A stretch of DNA of 11,840 bases from Thermoplasmata archaeon (lineage in GTDB: Archaea; Thermoplasmatota; Thermoplasmata; SG8-5; JAGLSY01): positions 1-11,840 of the forward strand of contig JAGLQE010000225.1 of assembly GCA_023137005.1 (NCBI GenBank), written 5' to 3'. Position numbers and translations under genes: made by a program. Under the pieces are notes generated by a model. It had not been told where the DNA came from, made no database searches, and was given only the letters and a program-made list of their open reading frames with translations. This document shows positions 1-11,840 of this stretch, piece after piece. Position 1 is the stretch's first letter, and each line of letters starts with the position of its first letter.

Positions 1-2841
1 GAGTACTATGGAGTGCGCTACGAATCCAATACCTCCATGAGCGTGGTCATGACCATGTCCTTCATGAACATCATCGGAGGTGATGGTGATAATTACATTA
101 ACGGTGAAAATGCCAGTAAAGAACTGGGCTACATGATATTCCACTGGTTCGGGAAGCCGGACATGAGGACGGAGCTCAGAATTACCAAGATAGATTTCAG
201 CATATCCAATGCACACCCGACCCTGGGAGATGCCTACATACTCCAGGCAACCATTCACAATGCCGGTCTTATCGAGGGAACCCCACTTGTAAGGTTCATG
301 GACGGCGATACCCAGATCGGTTCGGATTCATTGGGCATAGACCCGGATGACACCACCACCGCCGAGGTAATATGGAGGCCGTTATTCGCCGGAAGCCGTA
401 ATATCTCTGTCAGGGTGGACCCCCCGGATGTTTCTGGAGTGAATGAGATATTCGAGGACTTCAACAATGAGATAGTCATGCCCATCTATGTCTATTATTT
501 CTGGGACGATATGGAGAGTGGACAAGGTAGCCTGAATAAATGGAGCCATTACTCAACAGTTGTCAATATCAATGGGGAGAATCCCATAGACTACTTCACC
601 ACGACCACGGACATGGACACCGATATAATCTCTGATTGGAATGAGAGTGCGAGCATGGAAGTTCAGGTAGTGGATGATACATATCACACCTACAATTCTT
701 CATACTACATGAGAGAGGGGACTGGCATATTCGGAGAGATAGATGTCCTCATCAGCTTCGCACTGGATGACTCAAAATCAATGACCCAAAGATACCAAGA
801 TGAGGATCTCACTGTGGACAGTGATGGGGACGGTGATGCTACAAATGATCCTGACATAACCTGGCTGGAGGCCGCGAAGAATGCGGCTCTGATCCTTCTC
901 AATGAACTGTCTGATAATTCAGTATGTGTGAGCATCTGGGATTTCAGCGGTAATAATGAAAGAAGATGGTCTGGACCAGATGAGGGCATCGGCGGTCGTC
1001 TCGCTACCGATCCGGCTGCGTCAACCAACTTAAATAGACTGCCTGTACGCCTTGGTGATACTTACATCAACGCCACTGGAGACCCTATTGATGGCAGACA
1101 AAAGATCAGAGATGAGATAATCGCAATGGACAATCCCTCTGGTACGACCATCCTCTGGGATGCAATAGGGGAGGCATATTTGGATAATCTGTGGTGGAGA
1201 CCATATTACTCTATGGACCTGTTGCCCGTGGTCATAGTTCTGTCAGATGGTGCGGACTGCCAGGCTTCGGATCAGGCAGGCATTGCAGCCAACAGGATAG
1301 AAGGTGGCAGTGACTATTGGTGCCCATGGGATGATATAGATAATGGGCTTCAAGATTATGGAGACAATGGCCACAGCATGCACTATGGAAAATACACTTT
1401 TGAATGGGATGACCCATTGGGAACCACCCAGTGGCTCGAAGCCGGAAGCCTCGGTGCCATGCAGTATACTGACCGCTTGGGACTCCTAGGTGCGAAAATG
1501 AAGATATTCACTATCGGATTGGGACTAGAACATCATGACCCACCTTATGAGCCGGAGATCGTTGACCCTGCTCCTTATCCTGGAGACGAAGCCTTGGACA
1601 ATGACAATGCCTTTTATAATGGAACTAATGGCCAGTATTACGCAACAAATCCAGAGATATATCAACAGAGTGGAACCCTGGAATATAACCTTTGGAAATT
1701 AGCGACCAGCACAGGTGCCGAATACTTCCATGCTCCATCTGCGGATGATCTGGAAGATATATTCTATCAACTCGGGGCATTACTAGGCTCGGGATTCAAT
1801 CAAACCCGTTCTGGTGGAGAGGATTCCAGGGCAAGCACATTGCATGATAATTCAGACAAGCGGGCCGTGACCGAGACCTTTAACCTGACGGGAGTGGAGA
1901 GTGCGAAGCTCAGCTTCTGGCACAAGTACAAGCTCATCCAGGGAGGCAATGGAGCTTTCCTTCAGGTCGCTTACAAGAACGATGCAGTTGACAGTAATGG
2001 TGATGGAGACCCTACCAATGACTGGGATCTCAAGTACGTGGTCCCACCTGGCCAGTACTCCGGTGGATTGTATTTCAATTATAATGTCCTGGATGATTTC
2101 AATACCACCATCAAGTGGTGCTGGAATGGCCTGAGTGGTGGAGGGACCTATGCATGGGACTATGTCAATGTGGATATCTCACCTTACATTCCAGAGGGTT
2201 ACCGGGATGAAGTGAGACTTGTGTTCAATTACACCCAGTTCGGTGGAGGCCTTGGAGAAGGATGGTGGATAGATGATGTCAATCTGAAAGTATCCAGGTA
2301 TGATGGAATTAATCCATCTCCAGGAGATGATTATAAGGACATATGGAACCTGGTAAATATGACGGATATGAATATGAGTGCCAACAGTGGTGATCATGCC
2401 TGGGCCAATTTCGATCCCGACACAGGATACATGAAAGGTGGTATCGACAATTCACTTCAGACCATGCCGATCGACCTGAGCAATGCTCAGAATGCTTATC
2501 TTTCAGCCTATGTGAAGTTCAATCTTAACAATGATACTGGAACACCACCGGACGGCTTCCGGGTCGAGATCTCCATAAATGGTGGAATGACATGGCATTC
2601 GATGAGCCAGGCGTATAGAGCGGCCAGTGGCGTCTCCACTGGATCCAATGGTTGGACATACATTGATGACCTGAACGAGATCAATGTGGATCTGACCAAT
2701 TGGCGTGGGTATCAGATAATCCTCAGGTTCAGGGTATGCACATCCTCAGAATTAGGTTATGATCATTATGATATTGCGGCCGTGGATGGCGGTTTCTATG
2801 TGGATGATGTCCAGATCAAGGGAGAGTCCATACACAATTGA
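1..2841 (+). CDS. Secreted CARDB / VWA / beta-sandwich multidomain surface protein, 5'-truncated
   Basis: The frame is open from base 1 to the TGA at 2839-2841 (946 codons). The first possible start, GTG at 13, has no visible ribosome site and no signal peptide, so the true start lies upstream. Codons are counted from base 1. Codons 1-55 are the end of an unidentified domain. Codons 58-160 form a CARDB Ig-like domain ending in its usual acidic, Asn-rich tail. A jelly-roll (MAM / immune-inhibitor-A-like) beta-sandwich starts at codon 167 (WDDMESG). A VWA domain fills codons 248-598, with MIDAS residues DDSKS at 256-260, T at 382/383 and D416. The beta-sandwich then resumes (LSFWHKY near 637, WWIDDV at 755). 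A second beta-sandwich covers 778-946. There is no C-terminal membrane helix, so it is either secreted or anchored through the missing N-terminus. The likely role is calcium-dependent adhesion or substrate binding; no catalytic site is seen. It is probably cotranscribed with the next gene. Confidence 0.93.
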   Translation, partial: EYYGVRYESNTSMSVVMTMSFMNIIGGDGDNYINGENASKELGYMIFHWFGKPDMRTELRITKIDFSISNAHPTLGDAYILQATIHNAGLIEGTPLVRFMDGDTQIGSDSLGIDPDDTTTAEVIWRPLFAGSRNISVRVDPPDVSGVNEIFEDFNNEIVMPIYVYYFWDDMESGQGSLNKWSHYSTVVNINGENPIDYFTTTTDMDTDIISDWNESASMEVQVVDDTYHTYNSSYYMREGTGIFGEIDVLISFALDDSKSMTQRYQDEDLTVDSDGDGDATNDPDITWLEAAKNAALILLNELSDNSVCVSIWDFSGNNERRWSGPDEGIGGRLATDPAASTNLNRLPVRLGDTYINATGDPIDGRQKIRDEIIAMDNPSGTTILWDAIGEAYLDNLWWRPYYSMDLLPVVIVLSDGADCQASDQAGIAANRIEGGSDYWCPWDDIDNGLQDYGDNGHSMHYGKYTFEWDDPLGTTQWLEAGSLGAMQYTDRLGLLGAKMKIFTIGLGLEHHDPPYEPEIVDPAPYPGDEALDNDNAFYNGTNGQYYATNPEIYQQSGTLEYNLWKLATSTGAEYFHAPSADDLEDIFYQLGALLGSGFNQTRSGGEDSRASTLHDNSDKRAVTETFNLTGVESAKLSFWHKYKLIQGGNGAFLQVAYKNDAVDSNGDGDPTNDWDLKYVVPPGQYSGGLYFNYNVLDDFNTTIKWCWNGLSGGGTYAWDYVNVDISPYIPEGYRDEVRLVFNYTQFGGGLGEGWWIDDVNLKVSRYDGINPSPGDDYKDIWNLVNMTDMNMSANSGDHAWANFDPDTGYMKGGIDNSLQTMPIDLSNAQNAYLSAYVKFNLNNDTGTPPDGFRVEISINGGMTWHSMSQAYRAASGVSTGSNGWTYIDDLNEINVDLTNWRGYQIILRFRVCTSSELGYDHYDIAAVDGGFYVDDVQIKGESIHN
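742..1791 (+). other. VWA domain with intact MIDAS, inserted in a beta-sandwich
   Basis: This is a domain annotation within the first gene. The metal-ion-dependent adhesion site is complete: DxSxS at 766-780, Thr at 1144-1149 and Asp at 1246-1248 in LSDGAD. The domain ends in YFHAPSADDLEDIFYQL, typical of the last VWA helix. It is long, about 350 residues against the usual 180-200. The extra length comes from a calcium-loop insert between the MIDAS strand and the first helix (817-855), a segment after LSDGAD bounded by two Cys codons (1258-1260 and 1321-1323) that could form a disulfide, and an acidic, aromatic insert at about 1534-1690. Flanking sequence on both sides reads as the two halves of a single beta-sandwich. 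Confidence 0.85.
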
Positions 2842-2861: not shown

Positions 2862-5800
2862 ATGAAGGCCCAATACCTTGCCCAGATAGTGATAGCATTA
2901 CTGCTTCTTTCCAGTCTGGGGTTTGGCTCCTTTGCCAATGCACCCCGACCAGATATTGAGATCGTGGAGAATGGGACAAGAAGTGTGGCCTTCCATTCAT
3001 ACCATGGTTACGATGCCATGGTCAGCGTGATCAATGACCTTGTTTCAGAATACCCCGATATCGCCAGCCTTCATGACCTTGGTGATACGAGCCAGGGAAG
3101 GGACATCCTGGCTGTCAAGATATCGGATGATGTGGATACCGATGATGCAACCGAGCCAGATATTCTCTACATGGGGGCGCATCACGGCAATGAGCCCATT
3201 TCGGTGGAAGTACCCCTGTATCTCCTGGAATTCCTACTGACCAATTATGGGATAAATGGTACGGTCACAAAATGGGTTGATACCCGAGAGATATGGATAG
3301 TTCCCATGGTCAACCCGGATGGCATCGAGGCCGGTACACGCAAGAACGCCAATGGCACTGGTGTGGATATAAACCGGAACTATGATCAGAATTGGGGCAC
3401 TCAGGGGACCAGCACGAACCCCAGTGACACCATTTACTGTGGCCAGTATGCTTTTTCCGAGGCAGAGAGCAAGGCCATCAGGGACCTGGCGATCGATCAG
3501 AGATTTGAATTGTCCATGTCCTTCCACAGTTATGGGCAGTTGGTGTATTATCCCTGGGGTAATTCCATCGAGACCATATCGGCGAGTGAAGGATTACTTA
3601 TCGATATTGGATCTGAGATCGCCGAGAGGAACGGTTATCATCCCACCGAAGGCAATGAGGATGGGGCCTACCTGACCTCGGGAGACAGTGATGACTGGCT
3701 TTATACCAAAGGCACGCTGCCTTTCACTATCGAGCTTAGCACCGTGTTCCAGCCACCCGAGAACCAGATATTGGGTATCTGCGAGCGGAACCTTGATTCA
3801 TCCCTTTATCTGTTGGATATTGCAGACCTCCCAGAGGTATCCAGCCTTCCGGACTGGACCTTCATGGTCTATATGGCGGGGGACAATTCACTCTCCTCGG
3901 CCGCCCTGAAGGACCTCAATGAGATGGAAGTTGGAGGCTCAAGCCAGGATATCAATATCATTGCTTTGTTCGATGGCTCGACAGATGGGGATTCCAAAAT
4001 ATATCGAGTTGACAAGGATCCAGACGGCCTGAACACACAGATAATCAGCACAGTGATCGATGATCAAGGGTCGGTCATCGACCCTGCCACGAATGAGGCA
4101 GATATGAGCTCTTCCAAGGTCCTGGAGGATTTCGTGGACTGGACAATGGCTAGATACCCTGCTCAGAACACCGCCCTCATCATATGGGATCACGGGGATG
4201 GATTATTGGGAGGACTGGCAAGAGACGGGACCACCTGGATGCCAACCTGGGAGATGAGAAAAGCCCTGGCGGGCTACCATATTGATGTGGTTGGAACCGA
4301 CCTGTGCTGGCATGGGAACCTGGAGAATGCATATGAGCTCAGAGGGCTGGCCGACTTTTATGTTGGGTCAATTGCCGAGGAGCCATCAGATGGTTGGGAT
4401 TATGCAGCCATATCCGAATACTTGACGAATGAACCAAATACCCACCCCAGAGAACTGTCCAGGGAGATCGTGAGGACCTACAAGGCCGCTACGATTTCCA
4501 CACCATATGCCACACTTTCTTCCATTGACCTGTACCAGATGGAGAAGAACTTCCTCCCCATCTTCAATGAGTTCGCCATCTGCATAAGGGATCATATGTA
4601 CCGGGATCAGGCAAAGATAAGGACCGCGAGGTCCATGGCCTCGATCTTCGACATAGGCGAGCCATACTTCATTGACCTCGGAGAGTTCCTGGAGAGCCTT
4701 ATCGCGGCCGATACCAGCCAGCCATTGAACGATAGAGCCATATCACTATCACATCAATTGGACATGATGATCCTGGAGAGCCATGCAGGAATTCAATACC
4801 CAGATATTTCAGGCATAGGCATCTACCTGCCAGATAGGATATATGATAATAGGTATCATACCGAGCTTAGGTTCGAGGCCACCTCATGGGATGAGTTCTT
4901 ATCGGTTTTCAGAATTCCGATCCAGACCCCGGAAATATCCCATGATCCTGCAATAGATGTGTATGAATCCAATTCTACAATTCATTTCAATGTGACCATC
5001 AATGATGATGGACTTGACAGCGATTCTTTATTCCTCTACCATAGACCTGTGGGAGGAACGTGGACCCAGACATCCTTGACGGGATCGGGCAATTCTTATA
5101 GTGGCCAGGCATCCAGCCAGGCGGGAGTGAATGAGATCGAATATTATTTCTCGGCTACGGATCTGGGAGATAATACGATCACCCTGCCATACGGAGTGAA
5201 ACTTGGTTCATCCGACCTCTTTGTCCATGTGCTGGAGAATGCCATGGTGGTCGAGATCAGGTCCATTGACCATTATCCGAACACGAATATCACGGCCGGA
5301 GACAATATAACCATAACCATCCAGATCGAGAACACTGGCATGGTGGAGGTCCTGGGGGCTAATGTTTCACTGTTCCTTGTGGTGGATGGAACCCAGAATG
5401 TAATTGACTCGTCCTTGCAGAATATCCAGCCAGGGGAAATAAAGAACATATCATTCATGTGGTTGGCGGTTGAAGGGAATTACACCATCCTCGCAACCCT
5501 GGAATTCGGTGACGTGCACAGGGATATAGCCATAGACCTGGAGGTCCAGGGATCGGCCTATGTGGATCCAAACCTCAATGATCAGATCGAGGAGGAGCTG
5601 AACCAATTATGGCTGGGTGTCATCATCATGTTCGCGGCAGCCTCTGCCATATCCATGGGAGCGCTGTTCATCGGCAAGTCCAGGATCCGGCAGAAGAAAA
5701 AGGCACTGGCCTACAAGGCGGTTGATAATGCCAGTTACTATGTGAACTCCTTTGCGGATTTTGGAGCAGAGGTCCAGGTGGCCTCGTGGAAATTGGAAAA

Positions 5801-5918
5801 GGCGAGAGAGGCATTGGAGGAGAAGAAATATGATTCAGCCTATAACCTGGCATTGGAGGCAAAGAAATCGGTCGATACCTTCAATACCGGCCCAAAGAAC
5901 AATTCAGGAGAGATATAA
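2862..5918 (+). CDS. Membrane-anchored double protease: M14 zinc carboxypeptidase fused to C11 clostripain-type peptidase
   Basis: Predicted 1018 residues. A signal peptide covers about residues 1-27, with a cut near FANA. The M14 carboxypeptidase spans about 40-330: zinc ligands H108, E111 (HGNE) and H222 (SFHSY); substrate-binding R160 and N171-R172; Y270; catalytic E291 (TIELS). D277 in SGDSDDW aligns with CPA residue 255, which is Asp in carboxypeptidase B, suggesting basic C-terminal residues as substrate. A C11 clostripain-type peptidase spans about 335-680: catalytic H444 (WDHGDG) and C482 (GTDLCW), with D480 two residues before the Cys, where the family has an S1-pocket Asp linked to Arg/Lys preference. 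A fibronectin-III/Ig-like domain (about 690-790) and a CARDB-like domain (about 795-905) follow, then a membrane helix (916-938), a basic stop-transfer (KSRIRQKKK) and an 80-residue helical cytoplasmic tail. Both active sites look intact and should face outside the cell. The 20-base gap to the previous gene suggests one operon. Confidence 0.95.
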   Translation: MKAQYLAQIVIALLLLSSLGFGSFANAPRPDIEIVENGTRSVAFHSYHGYDAMVSVINDLVSEYPDIASLHDLGDTSQGRDILAVKISDDVDTDDATEPDILYMGAHHGNEPISVEVPLYLLEFLLTNYGINGTVTKWVDTREIWIVPMVNPDGIEAGTRKNANGTGVDINRNYDQNWGTQGTSTNPSDTIYCGQYAFSEAESKAIRDLAIDQRFELSMSFHSYGQLVYYPWGNSIETISASEGLLIDIGSEIAERNGYHPTEGNEDGAYLTSGDSDDWLYTKGTLPFTIELSTVFQPPENQILGICERNLDSSLYLLDIADLPEVSSLPDWTFMVYMAGDNSLSSAALKDLNEMEVGGSSQDINIIALFDGSTDGDSKIYRVDKDPDGLNTQIISTVIDDQGSVIDPATNEADMSSSKVLEDFVDWTMARYPAQNTALIIWDHGDGLLGGLARDGTTWMPTWEMRKALAGYHIDVVGTDLCWHGNLENAYELRGLADFYVGSIAEEPSDGWDYAAISEYLTNEPNTHPRELSREIVRTYKAATISTPYATLSSIDLYQMEKNFLPIFNEFAICIRDHMYRDQAKIRTARSMASIFDIGEPYFIDLGEFLESLIAADTSQPLNDRAISLSHQLDMMILESHAGIQYPDISGIGIYLPDRIYDNRYHTELRFEATSWDEFLSVFRIPIQTPEISHDPAIDVYESNSTIHFNVTINDDGLDSDSLFLYHRPVGGTWTQTSLTGSGNSYSGQASSQAGVNEIEYYFSATDLGDNTITLPYGVKLGSSDLFVHVLENAMVVEIRSIDHYPNTNITAGDNITITIQIENTGMVEVLGANVSLFLVVDGTQNVIDSSLQNIQPGEIKNISFMWLAVEGNYTILATLEFGDVHRDIAIDLEVQGSAYVDPNLNDQIEEELNQLWLGVIIMFAAASAISMGALFIGKSRIRQKKKALAYKAVDNASYYVNSFADFGAEVQVASWKLEKAREALEEKKYDSAYNLALEAKKSVDTFNTGPKNNSGEI

Positions 5919-6085
5919 TGAAAATAGATAGATTCATGAAGAATATTATTAAGCCTATTATTACTATAAATATATTAACCAGGCTTGTTTTTACTAATAA
6001 GGTATATATACGGTTAACGGTTACTACAAGTATTACACCAAGCATTGATTCTCGCATTAGAGAGTATACTATCGGGGTGACTTAA
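5918..6085 (+). CDS. Doubtful small open frame (55 codons) in the AT-rich gap
   Basis: ATG 5918 overlaps the protease stop codon (TAATG), with GGAG 7 bases upstream. The frame stays open to TAA 6083-6085, which overlaps the ATG of the giant gene in a second TAATG. The product would be a 55-residue Ile/Thr-rich basic peptide, unrecognised and without a membrane helix. Against it: base composition (about 30% G+C) and codon endings (mostly A/T) differ from both neighbours, TATA-like elements lie inside it, and the GGAG is also protease coding sequence. The other two forward frames are full of stops here. It is more likely non-coding than real. Confidence 0.18.
   Translation: MKIDRFMKNIIKPIITINILTRLVFTNKVYIRLTVTTSITPSIDSRIREYTIGVT
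5964..5972 (+). promoter_or_regulatory. Archaeal TATA-box-like element (upstream candidate)
   Basis: CTATAAATA fits the archaeal TATA consensus. With usual spacing, transcription would start near 5993-5998 and leave a leader of about 90 bases before ATG 6085. The AT-richness of the region makes chance matches easy. Confidence 0.4.
6003..6010 (+). promoter_or_regulatory. Archaeal TATA-box-like element (downstream candidate)
   Basis: TATATATA lies 75 bases before ATG 6085. With usual spacing, transcription would start near 6030-6036 and leave a leader of about 50 bases. It abuts the tandem heptamer at 6010-6023, which would then sit between the TATA box and the start site, a common operator position for archaeal repressors. 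Confidence 0.4.
6010..6023 (+). repeat. Perfect tandem heptamer ACGGTTA x2, possible operator
   Basis: ACGGTTA occurs twice head to tail with no gap (6010-6016 and 6017-6023), directly after the TATATATA element. It is the most GC-rich patch in the middle of the gap. The position suits a regulator site, but two 7-base copies may also arise by chance. Confidence 0.4.
6074..6080 (+). promoter_or_regulatory. Ribosome binding site GGGGTGA of the giant surface-protein gene
   Basis: GGGGTGA lies 4 bases before ATG 6085. The spacing is slightly short but the match is strong. Together with the signal peptide that follows, it fixes the start. Confidence 0.65.
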
Positions 6086-9000
6086 TGAGAAGGGGAACAA
6101 AGAACAATGTTAATTACGCAGGAAAATGTTTGAGCATCATCATCGTATGGTGCATGGTCTTGAGTGGTTTCGCTGGCCTATTACTGGTCAATGTTGGGAC
6201 TGCCAGTGAGGTCGGGTCTAGCACTATGGCAATACCTCAGATAATTGATGGTGTCGATGTCGTCATAGAAAGTAAGCCGGGTGAACCCTGGATATATGAC
6301 CACGACGGGCCTCTGGATATCATCAATGGTGGATCTCTGACCCTGATAAACTCGACCCTGAATTTCCCTCAGGATGGAGCATATTATTTGGATGTCAATA
6401 CTGCCAGTACACTCAAGCTGATCAACTCTACCATAACCACTGGAGCCAATGCCCAGGCTACCTGGAGTCCATTCCTTGATATTACCATAGATAACTCTGA
6501 CTTCATCATGGAGGATTATTCTGCATTGGTCTTCCCAGGGACTCTGGATATTACCAATTCGGATGTCTATGTCAATGATTCCTGGATCACTGGATTAAGC
6601 AATACGTTTACAGAAGATCTGGATTTTCCAAATTGGTTACAAAATAATCCCACAGCTGAACAAGTACTGAGTGAATCTTGGTATAATGGCTATATGGTTG
6701 ATGCATCAAATGACGGCCCGATCATGACCTTCACGGACTGTGATGATGTTACGATAGCTGGCTCAAGGATCGATATGCTGTACGAGAACTCCACCTTTGA
6801 TGCTTCGGCAGTGGCTGATCTGGACGAAAGATTTGCTCTTATAAACACAGAGATGACCATGATCGATACATATATTTCACTGGATTGGGTAAGTAGCTTT
6901 ATATTGACTGGAACACCAAATATGTGGGCAAAGAATATGGCAAGCCTTTCTCTGGATTCCCATATCTACGCCTACAATGTGACCCATGACCTTCCGGCCA
7001 CATATCCAGCATTCCCTGTCGGCTCTGACTCCCCCTATCTCTTCGCTGACACTTCTGAACTTTATTATTACAAGTGGGCTAGTATGTTAGCGGTTGATTC
7101 AAATAGCAATCCCATAGAGGATGCCTTCGTTAATTTCACTTACAAATTTTATTTGAATGACATACCATATGGTGATTATGTTTATGCCATGAACGACCTC
7201 AGCGATCTAAGTCCAGAAGATATAAGGATCCTTGATTACATGGACAGGGTTTCCATGTACACGATTGATGAGAACAATTACAATGTGACAAACAGTGATG
7301 GCATGGTCATGATACCACTTTTGAGTGATATTCACCCTGCACTGGATGCAGATATAGACGGTGACCATTGCGGCGAGTACACTGTAGATATCTCATATGA
7401 TGTAGCATCCTGGAATACCTATGTTGATTTCTCACCATACCCAATGATCACCTCAGATGACAATACGGTCGATGCGCCACTAGTCCAAATGATGGATGTC
7501 ACAGTGGATCTACCAGACCTCACACCCGGCATAATGATCTTCACACCAGCCACGAATATAATTGTAGAAGACACAATTGTGGAAATAAATGTCACCATAG
7601 AGAACCTCGGTAACACTAATGCCAGGGATGTCTTTGTGCAGGTATTTGACTATGATGGTGTTGGAGCACCGATCTTGATCGGAAATACCACTATTGATTC
7701 TATTCCAGGCCTTGGCGAAGATTACTTTATTTTTGAATGGAGCAATATCATGGTCGGAGGAAACCATACCATCAAAGTGATCATAGACTCCAATTACACG
7801 GTAACTGAAGACGATGAGGATAACAATATCAGAGATTATTACATTGATGTCGTACCAAAACTACCGGAATTATCCATAGAGGCCGCGAATATAGGTTTCT
7901 CAAATGATAATATCTCCTTCGACAATGAGATCACAATAACCGCCTTGGTCAGCAATGATGGTGGAAGAGACAATGGAACCAATGTGCTGGTGTCCTTCTA
8001 CGAAGGCGACCCAGCGGTTGACGGCGTCTTTATTGGATCTGGCTCCATTGCGGACATAGCACCTGGTGCGTACATAGAGACCTCGGTGAACTGGATACCC
8101 ACGACCAACGGTACCTATGACATCTATGTCTGGGTGGATTCAAATAATGCTAATATTGAATACAATGAGGATAATAATACCGCATTCGCACAGATCACGA
8201 TATTGCCAAAGCCCAACCCAACACTTGAGAACCTGGTCTTTGATGATGAGACACCCATGATGGGTGATAATATCCTCATCACCGTTGACCTGACAAATGA
8301 GGGAAGCGAAGATGCCATTGGAAATATCAGTATAGAATTCTATGACTATGATATGGACGGAAACCCGCTAGGCCAGATAGGGACCACGCAAGTTCAGGCA
8401 GACCTGTTAAGCGGACAAACTGTTCAGGTCAACCAGCCCTGGACGCCAGGAATAATAGATTACCATCAAATACAGGTCGTGATCACTTGCGAGGCAAAGA
8501 TCGATGAAGGCGACTTAACTGACAATGAGATATTCGCGAATATCCTGGTCTACGATGGTGGCTTCCAGGATCTCATAGTCAATGATACCATGCCCATGGG
8601 ATTCGCAGGGAACTTCGCGATAAGTGGAGATTATGACCAGGACGGATATGTACTTGTTGAGGAAGGAGGTATTCTCAGTATTCAGAATGCTGATTTCACA
8701 ATGATGCAAGAGAGATCGTATCAGTACAATATCATCGTGAAGGACAATGGTGTACTGAACATTGATAGTGAGGTTGTCTCCACGAACGGTTATTACATGG
8801 ATATCTTCATAATGGATAATGCCGAGGTCAATATCATAGACAGCACCACACCATCGAACCTCAACCTCCATGCGTCCGACAATTCAAATATTTACATTGA
8901 TAACTCAGATATTGGTGGGATCTTCAGTGCTCCATCAGGAGCCGTGACCCTTAAAGTAGAGAATACGACCTTCAGGAAGGCATTGACCTCCTTTGGTGGA

Positions 9001-11840
9001 GATTCAACTGCTGACCTGATAGCCCTGACCATGACCACACCAATTGTCTGGGCACAGGACAATGCCGAGATCAAACTTTACAGGTGCATAGACGTCACAG
9101 TATTGGATGCTAATAATTGGCCGATAGAGAATGCGGCTGTGAACCTGGAATACCTGGTACCCAACTATCTGCAGGCTCTATTGGCAAATAATGGGATCAC
9201 CGATGTGGATGGATACATCCAATTCACCACCCTGAGCGACATAATAAATCAAACAGTACATCAGAGCTCGGCCTCGGTGAGCAATTACAGGCTGACATCC
9301 AACTTCGTGGGATCCACGGATGTATTCACGGATGTAGTGAACATCGCATTACCATCATACAATGTCATGACCCTTGCGTCCAATAATGTACCAGTGACCA
9401 TAAAAATGAACGATGTGAGACCAGATCTGGATCCACCCTTTGAGGTATCCACCCATTCGGTTGGAAAGGACGAGACCGTGATGTTGTCGGCCAATATCTC
9501 CAATGGCGGAGATGCGGATGCCTATAATTTCTTTGTCACATTCGCTGACGAGACCAATGATTATATCCTTGAGATTATACCAATGGCATTCCTAGAGAGA
9601 AACACGTACCAGTGGGTGTTCATCAATTACACATGGACGGACAGGGCGGACTTCGGGAATCACACGGTAAATGTGACTGTTGATTGGGGAAATTTCATCA
9701 TCGAGCAGGATGAGGAAAATAACTACAATTCCACATGGATCAATGTGGTCGGAAGACCAGACCTCACCATAGAAGAAAGTGACATTTCAATGATCAGTTC
9801 CAGTGTTGTGAACTATGAGGTCATGATCGGTGTCACCGTGAATAATATTGGAGACACGGACATAACCAATGTCAGTGTGAGTATCTATGATTCTGATGCA
9901 AATGGAACCCTGATAGGGAATGTGACCATTGATAGTATCCTATTTGACAGCTCGGCCAGTATCGTGCCGATCATCTGGACACCGACCGAGGTAAGGGAAT
10001 ACAATGTCATGGTCATTATAGATGAAGATAATACTGTTATAGAGGTCAATGAAACGAACAATGATGCAACAAGGTCGATCCTGATAAATGATTATTCAGA
10101 TATCTATGTTGGACAGGTATTGTTCATTGTCAATGGAGATGCTATAACAGAGGTCAATAACAGAACCGTGGTAACCATAAGGGCACTTGTGAACAACTCG
10201 GGAGGAGTGGCCAATACTGGAATTGCAAGGTTCTATGATCATTATAATATTGAGATAGGCTCATACATCCTACCGACCATCTACCCCAATGGAAGTACCA
10301 TAGCCGAGATCACCTGGTTCGCCGATGCAGACCTGGATGGTAATTCAGTGAACCGGAACATAGATGTTAGAGTGACCGACATAGCAATGGGTGAGAATCC
10401 CGGAGGTCAGAGCAATACACGGACTGCTGTTCTATCTATCATTGATACAAGAGCAGACCTAATGGCCACCAGCGCTGATGTGAATATTACCACCGAAGAC
10501 CTCATCGAATCCACTGCCATTGATGTGAATGTTACAGTTCACAATGATGGTGCGGATGCGGCACAGGATTTCACTGTCGAGATATTCTACGACGAGATAG
10601 ACAGTACTCACCTGATCGGAACTGCTATTATAGAAACACTTAACGGCAACTCGGAGATGAGTGTCATAATCACCTGTGCCGGCATACCGTCTGTGGGTGA
10701 GCATTACTTATTGATAGTGCTTGACAGGGACATCCTTATCGGTGACAACTTCACGGTCAATGGAATGGATTATAACTACACAGGCAGTGTTGAGGAATAT
10801 AATGAACTGAACAATCAGCTCATAAATGTCACAGTGGACATAGAGGCTGCCGAGTACCTGATCAGGATCAATTCACCATCCTCGGAACAGAACTACACTA
10901 TCGGAGAGGAGAACAATACCTGGGTCAGTGGAAGACTCACCAAGGTCATTGGAGGACAGGGTGTAGGCGGCGCCGAGGTCGTCATAATGCTGGATGGAGA
11001 GCGCTTCACCGCAACAACTGATATGAGCGGGAACTTCGGTACCGCTGTTGATCTTCCTGGAATTGTTGGCCAGTACACGATAGTGGCAAGCACAGGCAAT
11101 GCAGAGGATGAATCCACCATAATAAATGTCAATGGAGATACAGGCCTCGATTGGTTCTTGATAATTTTGATAATCGTTCTCGCTGTGGTTGGAATAATCA
11201 TTGGTGTAACTGCTTATCTTAAATTTGTTGGACTGGGAAAGACCGTGGAGTGCGGTGAGTGTGGAGCATTCATACCAGACTCAGCCACCAAGTGTCCAAA
11301 GTGTAATACTGAATTCGAGACCGACACCGCCAAGTGCAGTGTTTGTGGAGCATGGGTACCAATAAACAGCAAGACCTGCCCAGAGTGTGAGTCCGAGTTC
11401 ACCATCGGTGATGAGGAACTGGATGATTACAAGACACAGATGAAGAAGCAGTACGATGATGTCATCAATGGCTTCAAGATCGAGGCGAAGAAGGAACTAG
11501 GAGACACTTTCTCAGAGAAGGACTTCCAAACATGGTGGGCCACACAGCCAACATTCATTACCTTTGACCAGTGGCTGAAAGAAGATGAAGAAATGAAGAG
11601 ACTTGGTTCCAAACCATGCCCCAACTGTGCGACACCCAATAGCGTGACAGCCACCATATGCCACAAATGCGGTACAGTGATGGAGGAGGAGGAGGCAAAA
11701 CCAATACCGGCAGCAGCCACTACAAAGGCCCCAGGGGCAGAGAAGGCTCCAGCACCGGTCGAAGCAGCACCTGCACCAGTAGTTGCTCCAGTAGCCGAGG
11801 CACCAGCACCGGGCGAAGAAGAGGCGAAGAAGAAGTGCCC
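6085..11840 (+). CDS. Giant surface protein: duplicated beta-helix / Ig / CARDB modules, membrane helix, cytoplasmic zinc ribbons; 3'-truncated
   Basis: One frame with no stop, 1918 complete codons, running off the window. Residues 1-40 are a basic N-terminus plus hydrophobic signal peptide, with a cut near GTAS. Residues about 70-330 contain short strands ending in NS (LTLINS, LKLINS, ITIDNS, LDITNS), like a parallel beta-helix. An Ig-like, carboxypeptidase-regulatory-like domain (about 330-475) and three CARDB domains (474-592, 593-710, 711-825) follow. The order then repeats: beta-helix-like (825-1000), regulatory-like (1003-1110), four CARDB domains (1110-1590) and a last Ig-like domain (1591-1686). 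A membrane helix covers 1690-1712. The cytoplasmic side has CxxC-CxxC ribbons at 1723-1740, 1751-1768 and 1845-1862, a helical segment between the second and third, an Ala/Pro linker (about 1866-1913), and KKKC at 1914-1918, probably the start of a fourth ribbon. No enzyme motif is seen. Likely a surface adhesin, scaffold or sensor with an internal protein-binding tail. Confidence 0.93.
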   Translation, partial: MRRGTKNNVNYAGKCLSIIIVWCMVLSGFAGLLLVNVGTASEVGSSTMAIPQIIDGVDVVIESKPGEPWIYDHDGPLDIINGGSLTLINSTLNFPQDGAYYLDVNTASTLKLINSTITTGANAQATWSPFLDITIDNSDFIMEDYSALVFPGTLDITNSDVYVNDSWITGLSNTFTEDLDFPNWLQNNPTAEQVLSESWYNGYMVDASNDGPIMTFTDCDDVTIAGSRIDMLYENSTFDASAVADLDERFALINTEMTMIDTYISLDWVSSFILTGTPNMWAKNMASLSLDSHIYAYNVTHDLPATYPAFPVGSDSPYLFADTSELYYYKWASMLAVDSNSNPIEDAFVNFTYKFYLNDIPYGDYVYAMNDLSDLSPEDIRILDYMDRVSMYTIDENNYNVTNSDGMVMIPLLSDIHPALDADIDGDHCGEYTVDISYDVASWNTYVDFSPYPMITSDDNTVDAPLVQMMDVTVDLPDLTPGIMIFTPATNIIVEDTIVEINVTIENLGNTNARDVFVQVFDYDGVGAPILIGNTTIDSIPGLGEDYFIFEWSNIMVGGNHTIKVIIDSNYTVTEDDEDNNIRDYYIDVVPKLPELSIEAANIGFSNDNISFDNEITITALVSNDGGRDNGTNVLVSFYEGDPAVDGVFIGSGSIADIAPGAYIETSVNWIPTTNGTYDIYVWVDSNNANIEYNEDNNTAFAQITILPKPNPTLENLVFDDETPMMGDNILITVDLTNEGSEDAIGNISIEFYDYDMDGNPLGQIGTTQVQADLLSGQTVQVNQPWTPGIIDYHQIQVVITCEAKIDEGDLTDNEIFANILVYDGGFQDLIVNDTMPMGFAGNFAISGDYDQDGYVLVEEGGILSIQNADFTMMQERSYQYNIIVKDNGVLNIDSEVVSTNGYYMDIFIMDNAEVNIIDSTTPSNLNLHASDNSNIYIDNSDIGGIFSAPSGAVTLKVENTTFRKALTSFGGDSTADLIALTMTTPIVWAQDNAEIKLYRCIDVTVLDANNWPIENAAVNLEYLVPNYLQALLANNGITDVDGYIQFTTLSDIINQTVHQSSASVSNYRLTSNFVGSTDVFTDVVNIALPSYNVMTLASNNVPVTIKMNDVRPDLDPPFEVSTHSVGKDETVMLSANISNGGDADAYNFFVTFADETNDYILEIIPMAFLERNTYQWVFINYTWTDRADFGNHTVNVTVDWGNFIIEQDEENNYNSTWINVVGRPDLTIEESDISMISSSVVNYEVMIGVTVNNIGDTDITNVSVSIYDSDANGTLIGNVTIDSILFDSSASIVPIIWTPTEVREYNVMVIIDEDNTVIEVNETNNDATRSILINDYSDIYVGQVLFIVNGDAITEVNNRTVVTIRALVNNSGGVANTGIARFYDHYNIEIGSYILPTIYPNGSTIAEITWFADADLDGNSVNRNIDVRVTDIAMGENPGGQSNTRTAVLSIIDTRADLMATSADVNITTEDLIESTAIDVNVTVHNDGADAAQDFTVEIFYDEIDSTHLIGTAIIETLNGNSEMSVIITCAGIPSVGEHYLLIVLDRDILIGDNFTVNGMDYNYTGSVEEYNELNNQLINVTVDIEAAEYLIRINSPSSEQNYTIGEENNTWVSGRLTKVIGGQGVGGAEVVIMLDGERFTATTDMSGNFGTAVDLPGIVGQYTIVASTGNAEDESTIINVNGDTGLDWFLIILIIVLAVVGIIIGVTAYLKFVGLGKTVECGECGAFIPDSATKCPKCNTEFETDTAKCSVCGAWVPINSKTCPECESEFTIGDEELDDYKTQMKKQYDDVINGFKIEAKKELGDTFSEKDFQTWWATQPTFITFDQWLKEDEEMKRLGSKPCPNCATPNSVTATICHKCGTVMEEEEAKPIPAAATTKAPGAEKAPAPVEAAPAPVVAPVAEAPAPGEEEAKKKC
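7504..8556 (+). repeat. First CARDB array (three Ig-like domains)
   Basis: Three consecutive domains of about 115-120 residues start at 7504, 7861 and 8215. Each has the CARDB strand pattern ITV-x-NxG followed by a strand with FY/FD. The first two end in the family tail of acidic and Asn residues (DEDNN, NEDNN); the third ends in a weaker TDNE. The copies are diverged at protein level, so the array is old. Confidence 0.75.
9412..10854 (+). repeat. Second CARDB array (four Ig-like domains)
   Basis: Four domains start near 9412, 9754, 10090 and 10447. Their tails read DEENN, NETNN, a loose GQSNT in the third copy, and NELNN. The third and fourth copies are more diverged, and the fourth carries an insert before its tail. 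Strand order and length match the first array. Confidence 0.7.
11251..11670 (+). other. Three cytoplasmic zinc ribbons with an aromatic helical insert
   Basis: Four-Cys ribbons have their CxxC pairs at 11251/11260 with 11293/11302, at 11335/11344 with 11377/11386, and at 11617/11626 with 11659/11668. The first two are back to back, like a double zinc ribbon. About 75 residues separate the second from the third: an acidic, Lys-rich helix and then an aromatic motif (FQTWWATQP...FDQWLKEDEE) near 11524-11595. All lie just after the membrane helix. Confidence 0.85.

Follow-up and report, generated by a model that had tools for sequence, protein, structure and literature searches.

Two peptidases of different catalytic type are joined in one gene product of a Thermoplasmata archaeon, and their union raises the question of whether the second domain trims what the first has cut and, if so, on which proteins. 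The first-pass annotation of the window (the whole stretch of DNA that was analysed, 11,840 nucleotides) had proposed that a clostripain-type C11 domain and an M14 carboxypeptidase domain share a preference for Arg and Lys. In the best explanation reached here, held with roughly even confidence, the protein is a surface endo/carboxypeptidase whose C11 domain would cut and whose M14 domain would trim the new ends, Arg and Lys included, within a conserved locus of giant pilin-type proteins. It builds on the domain order, the catalytic sets, the aligned pocket residues, the conserved neighbours and the separate origins of the two fusion orders.

Architecture of the fusion protein

Positions 2862-5918 form one open reading frame that encodes a single chain, in the order signal peptide, M14, C11, CARDB, one transmembrane (TM) helix and cytosolic tail:

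2862..5918, + strand: M14-C11 fusion gene, 1018 aa
2862..2939, + strand: predicted signal peptide, about residues 1-26 (hydropathy peak 5-25; model helix 3-18, low confidence 20-43)
2985..3839, + strand: M14 carboxypeptidase domain, residues 42-326 (domain search and fold match)
3849..4928, + strand: C11 clostripain-type domain, residues 330-689 (domain search, alignment and fold match)
5268..5498, + strand: CARDB domain, residues 803-879 (domain search)
5607..5675, + strand: predicted TM helix, residues 916-938 (structure model and hydropathy)
5676..5915, + strand: cytosolic helical tail, residues 939-1018 (structure model and hydropathy)

The claim that both peptidases are fused in one surface-anchored chain is borne out by the predicted signal peptide, the two domains and the TM helix. 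Structure prediction, suggested at the outset as a check, gave a model that matches the folds of carboxypeptidase T (CPT) and clostripain. As part of the whole best explanation, and at the same even confidence, the chain would be anchored in the membrane with both active sites facing outward.

A helical tail of this kind is found in 30/37 forward (M14-C11) fusions. It has no Pfam match, though it is conserved among them, and might bind a cytosolic partner. The idea that it is a shared module was dropped, as the only matches elsewhere in its own genome were weak (best 0.002). An Rfam search returned no match, and promoter and terminator patterns occurred at chance level; these patterns are bacterial and of little use for an archaeon.

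Active sites and pocket residues

Every catalytic residue named in the first-pass annotation is present in the alignments, and both sets are complete. In the M14 domain these are, all by alignment:

3183..3194, + strand: zinc ligands H108 and E111 (HGNE)
3339..3341, + strand: R160, substrate-side Arg
3372..3377, + strand: N171-R172, anchor of the C-terminal carboxylate
3525..3527, + strand: zinc ligand H222
3669..3692, + strand: S1' wall from Y270 to D277, with Y270, D275 and D277 (alignment to CPT)
3732..3734, + strand: catalytic E291

The domain carries the residue set of A/T-type M14 peptidases (HxxE...H, catalytic Glu, Asn-Arg and the Tyr248 equivalent), and the fold agrees. We take R160 to be R127 of carboxypeptidase A (CPA), N171-R172 to be CPA N144-R145, and CPA Tyr248 to be the Tyr from which the spacing to position 255 is counted. 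The closest solved relative is CPT (3.8e-47), carboxypeptidase B (CPB) being far weaker (8.7e-25). The alignment with CPT has no gaps between Y270 and W279 and places D275 on CPT D260 and D277 on CPT 262, which is Thr in that enzyme. Because the spacing from the Tyr is an equal seven residues, CPT 262 would correspond to position 255 of CPA and CPB, and D277 then supplies the Asp of the CPB type. CPA has Ile255 and CPB Asp255, according to the available part of one report (PMC6937156), and CPT mutants at 211, 251, 254 and 262 are named in PDB titles. The pocket predicted from the alignment thus contains two acids, D275 as in CPT and D277 as in CPB; this stretch of the model has a pLDDT of 74. 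Little room is left ahead of the M14 domain for an A/B-type propeptide.

The C11 domain has a His-Cys dyad, an Asp two residues ahead of the Cys and the C11 fold. Its residues of interest, all by alignment, are:

3912..3914, + strand: D351, on PmC11 Asn50 (the MALT1 Asp365 position)
4191..4193, + strand: catalytic H444
4299..4307, + strand: D480 (S1 Asp) and catalytic C482
4389..4391, + strand: D510, on PmC11 Asp207

In the accessible portion of a structural report, PmC11 Asn50, Asp177 and Asp207 overlie MALT1 Asp365, Asp462 and Glu500, and Asp177 is conserved throughout C11 (PMC4850288); D351, D480 and D510 align with these three positions. D351 and D480 are invariant in 37/37 fused and 27/27 stand-alone C11 rows, and position 510 is Asp in four of the 37 fusions and six of the 27 stand-alone domains. 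The autolytic activation loop of C11 enzymes lies between His and Cys and is marked by Lys147 in PmC11 and by a nonapeptide in clostripain. Only 11 residues separate H444 from D455 in the window protein, and the longer PmC11 loop appears to be lacking. At the autolytic site no Lys or Arg was counted in the window protein, with R454 nearby, a reading affected by the shortness of the loop and the uncertain placement of gaps.

Forward fusions and members with a dead M14 site

The search for the M14-C11 order across archaeal genomes, also suggested at the outset, returned at least 37 proteins, that of the window included, among the best 120 of 149 homologs. In a profile search of 250 genomes from the window's class, at least 13 had a forward fusion, which a contig end truncates in two cases; at most three candidates were scored per genome, so that genome counts are lower bounds, and the 37 database proteins and 13 survey loci overlap. 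Named relatives come from Thermoplasmata, Methanomassiliicoccales and Euryarchaeota metagenome-assembled genomes. No paper naming an M14-C11 fusion was found in a literature search with full texts under open licence.

H444, D480 and C482 are kept in 37/37 proteins and the complete M14 site in 33/37. The remaining four (P0034-P0037) have lost the zinc ligands and the catalytic Glu, and L020 and L022 (2/13) are M14-dead in the class survey. Six dead-M14 fusions (L061, L062 and P0034-P0037) lack both the zinc ligands and E291, retain D277 in five cases, and keep R172 and a live C11 site in all six. They form one group of the M14 tree, away from the window, and differ from it at the C-terminus. 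A separate origin for these fusions, hinted at by the C11 tree, is not needed because neither tree rejects a single origin for the forward fusions as a whole (M14 p 0.106, C11 p 0.438). The closest tree neighbours of L001, a second C11 gene in its genome (G000, contig C275; frame of 673 aa), are the C11 domains of the dead-M14 fusions; the branch concerned is unstarred.

Stand-alone M14 domains of family f6 are nested inside the forward group of the M14 tree. This looks like a later loss of the C11 domain, and the fusion therefore seems dispensable in the genomes concerned. An apparent Tyr at position 291 in the stand-alone L031 and L035 is treated as alignment wobble, since a larger alignment gives Glu (overlapping loci L123 and L096, the same genes).

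Reversed fusions and a second origin

The two domains have also been joined the other way round. Nine long M14 frames were selected from the class, and in five of them C11 lies upstream of M14 (L045-L049; 2029-2501 aa, five genomes); all five have both sites complete and a GD[ST]DDW motif. Big_7 and CARDB domains lie between C11 and M14 in the three that were scanned with Pfam. By eye, these five proteins have no C-terminal TM anchor, and they end in a GWNLVGYP...AYWV-type domain that also occurs in some neighbouring frames. The database matches listed contain 13 reversed-type proteins, all with HARE and GD[ST]DDW, and a C11 Asp-x-Cys is readable in 12 of them (P0142 is cut). These proteins overlap with loci L046-L049, at least four being the same or near copies: P0121 served as the query, and P0125, P0134 and P0136 match L049, L046 and L047, so that the gain is about nine proteins.

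Both orders occur within genomes G042 and G023. Forward and reversed types fall into different groups of an M14 tree of 119 domains and are apart in the C11 tree too; an AU test without P0149 rejects a single clade for the M14 domains of both orders (p 2.8e-58). On the evidence of the M14 tree, the fusion therefore arose at least twice, in opposite orders. P0149, from Methanomicrobiales, has C11 followed by M14 with the pocket GEHDDW and is possibly one more independent fusion, outside Thermoplasmatota. In P0138-P0140 a C11-Big_7 part precedes a divergent M14-like domain (HGDE; GAYEDY in P0138), which may be another case in which both enzyme types were joined. They were excluded from the M14 counts and tree, and the C11 tree contains two of them.

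The double-Asp pocket in fused and stand-alone enzymes

The pocket with Asp at both 275 and 277 is common to both fusion orders. In the tree set it occurs in 41/43 live fused M14 domains versus 11/69 live stand-alone ones; to obtain this set, 146 domains were filtered at 85% identity and by a length limit of 220, which left 119, and the stand-alone proteins in it are a selection from the listed matches. The fused domains that deviate are L063, with Asp and Cys, and P0149, with Glu and Asp. Among the 11 stand-alone proteins with both acids, six fall within starred groups of fused domains, and another, P0039, borders on the forward group.

A table of the class, in which each distinct M14 domain is counted once, gives 13/14 fused versus 3/63 stand-alone domains with the double Asp, and D277 alone in 17/63 stand-alone domains. 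It was built without weaker M14 matches, the window, L019 and L024-L027, and has no row for L149 or L150; L054-L056 coincide with L007, L006 and L004, and L050, whose frame is cut by the contig end, enters as stand-alone. Four more stand-alone double-Asp loci (L024-L027) lie outside this table.

The raw counts are strong, and a tree-aware paired test of the link between fusion and pocket, with six pairs and hence no power, was not significant (1.5 pairs the same way, 0.4 the other way and 4.1 without a difference; median p 1). Sequences that share ancestry do not count as independent and the paired test gives no support, so that two or three origins carry the pattern; the counts are suggestive of a pocket that goes with fusion.

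A conserved locus with giant pilin-type proteins

The neighbouring genes bring in a pilin-linked locus that lay beyond the reach of the first-pass annotation:

1..2841, + strand: upstream gene, whose 5' end lies beyond the contig; encodes part of a giant surface protein with a MAM domain and, by homology, a VWA-like part
6085..11838, + strand: downstream gene, open at its 3' end; encodes CARDB repeats, a TM helix (from sequence) and zinc ribbons

The upstream gene stops 20 bases ahead of the fusion ATG, and its full-length homologs start with an archaeal type IV pilin N-terminus. A homolog of this giant lies upstream on the same strand in 8/8 other live-M14 fusion loci examined (L054-L060 and L063; 36-54% identity), with another frame between giant and fusion in L055 and L057. 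A Schlafen/AlbA_2-type regulator gene occupies positions 9559-10950 on the minus strand of L055, between giant and fusion. The downstream gene has a homolog in five of the seven loci with downstream sequence (L054, L055, L057, L058 and L060); none was found in L059 or in the 1.6 kb available in L063, and the contig of L056 ends downstream of the fusion.

Pilin_N was found in 4/4 giants scanned with their N-termini (27.3-37.4 bits, cut-off 25.2); those of L058 and L054 are immediate upstream neighbours of the fusion, and L155 and L161 lie one gene beyond. CARDB is present in all four, and their VWA and MAM matches are weak, below the Pfam cut-offs. Giants upstream of the fusion, in frames of 1780-2434 aa, often stand two in a row. 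Pilus genes were scanned on the two contigs that run past the downstream gene, G011 and G023, the downstream stretches of G012 and G010 lying outside the scan. In G011 two T2SSE (pilus ATPase) and two T2SSF membrane genes, encoded on the other strand, come straight after the downstream gene. G023 has one gene of each kind, separated from the downstream gene by about 7 kb that contain further genes. The window's own genome has the start of a Pilin_N giant close to the end of contig C232, where its frame leaves the contig, and ATPase genes on contigs C87 and C2.

These neighbours support the main rival reading, in which the principal job of the enzyme would be to process or shed the giants: the C11 domain would cut them and the M14 domain trim the ends, in analogy to the maturation of gingipains, which are trimmed by CPG70 according to the accessible text of one report (PMC5445135). 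The recurrence of the giant and downstream homologs, the pilin N-termini and the nearby pilus genes all speak for it. Set against them, the upstream giant and the downstream gene are both absent beside the dead-M14 fusions L061 and L062, the reversed fusions also have surroundings other than those of the live forward fusions, and the neighbours could all simply serve capture and digestion. The conserved locus fits both digestion and maturation, and we consider maturation as the main job a serious but rather unlikely alternative to the surface endo/carboxypeptidase proposed here.

Do the two specificities match?

As first proposed, the C11 domain would generate exactly the basic C-termini that the M14 domain removes. 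The acids at D275/D277 and D351/D480/D510 favour such a match, as does the same pocket in the reversed fusions, and it stands as plausible only. D480 is in place two residues before the Cys, but it is found in every C11 row examined, fused or stand-alone; it therefore does not discriminate and is ruled out as a specificity marker. D277 keeps its alignment with CPA 255 and its likeness to CPB, yet its retention in five of six dead M14 domains downgrades it as proof of a basic pocket, and a live forward fusion (L023/L063) has Cys there.

Experience with related enzymes counsels similar caution. In the available part of the CPT study, this enzyme removes hydrophobic, basic and acidic residues despite Asp260 (it hydrolyses substrates with C-terminal Leu, Phe, Arg or Glu), and its specificity did not change when it was given the complete pocket of CPB; pocket residues alone thus failed as a predictor there (PMC6937156). 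Globupain, a C11 enzyme from an archaeal metagenome-assembled genome (PMC10315481), prefers Nle, Leu, Asn, Arg and Lys (PMC12280095), and C11 enzymes vary in specificity despite similar active sites, as far as the accessible text describes them (PMC10315481).

One could accordingly picture two active but unmatched proteases, with a broad, CPT-like M14 domain and a fusion that serves general protein digestion. The nearest solved relative is indeed CPT, well above CPB, and its pocket swaps did not narrow its range; however, the double Asp recurs in nearly all live fused domains of both orders, and CPT has Thr at 262. This reading is given less than an even chance, about as much as maturation of the giants. 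It is improbable that the M14 domain serves chiefly as a structural or peptide-binding module and that the C11 domain alone matters: the six fusions without zinc ligands and E291 that keep R172 and a live C11 site suggest such a role, but they form one M14 group away from the window with another C-terminus, the two dead loci examined sit in other surroundings, and the M14 site of the window is complete. Because of the weak points from CPT, the C11 literature and the dead-M14 fusions, C11 cleavage after Arg or Lys is rated likely and an M14 preference for C-terminal Arg or Lys somewhat more probable than its absence, both judged from aligned residues; the hand-over of products from C11 to M14 is put forward as a hypothesis.

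Proposed mechanism and implications

According to the surface endo/carboxypeptidase model, the ectodomain would hang on the membrane by one TM helix. A protein held near the surface, perhaps by giant pilin-type fibres, would be cut internally by the C11 domain, and the cuts would probably follow Arg or Lys. Being a CPT relative with an unusually acidic predicted S1' pocket, the M14 domain would then trim the new C-termini, Arg and Lys among them, and the resulting peptides and amino acids would be taken up. The giants and the CARDB/zinc-ribbon membrane protein would cooperate in this, most likely in the breakdown of surface-held proteins. Activity of both domains, a basic preference, product hand-over and a nutritional role are all presumed by this scheme. 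The MBG-D archaea, which we take to be relatives within Thermoplasmatota, possess peptidases of the families C11, C25 and M14 and express amino acid utilization genes, as stated in the available portion of one report (PMC6461988).

A bolder and more doubtful version holds that Thermoplasmatota twice joined C11 with a CPT-type M14 domain, in opposite orders and with the same double-Asp pocket, to cut after and then remove Arg and Lys, the forward type being the anchored digesting or processing unit of a pilin-giant apparatus with a dedicated type IV pilus machine. The repeated origin suggests that keeping both steps together pays. These matters bear on protein feeding and surface building in the uncultured archaea of the group, and an enzyme that unites endo- and exopeptidase in one chain, each with an acidic pocket, is directly testable, with the six dead-M14 relatives as natural controls. 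Should the link to pilins be true, it would join protein breakdown or surface protein maturation to a pilus-type apparatus.

Comparison with known systems

Compared with CPT of Thermoactinomyces vulgaris (M14A), the window protein has Asp instead of Thr at 262, a two-residue insert ahead of Y270, little room for a propeptide, a C11 fusion and a membrane anchor. It resembles the basic-specific CPB (M14A) in the Asp at the position that would be 255, and differs from it in the extra acid D275, where CPB presumably has Gly, and in an overall similarity below that to CPT. Unlike clostripain and PmC11, its C11 domain has a short H444-D455 loop, apparently without the Lys147 loop of PmC11, and is fused and anchored.

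The closest parallel in division of labour is the surface of Porphyromonas gingivalis, where gingipains cut after Arg or Lys and the zinc carboxypeptidase CPG70 removes C-terminal Arg and Lys, according to the accessible part of the report (PMC5445135). There, the same two tasks on one cell surface are carried out by separate chains exported by bacterial type IX secretion, whereas here they would fall to a single chain. Gingipains belong to peptidase family C25, not C11. Another membrane-bound multidomain chain with M14 is human carboxypeptidase D, which is not known to have an endopeptidase domain. It contains several M14 domains, one of them predicted to be inactive, in the available text of one report (PMC5683605). 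The peptidase families and their division of labour are known; the single-chain form is new.
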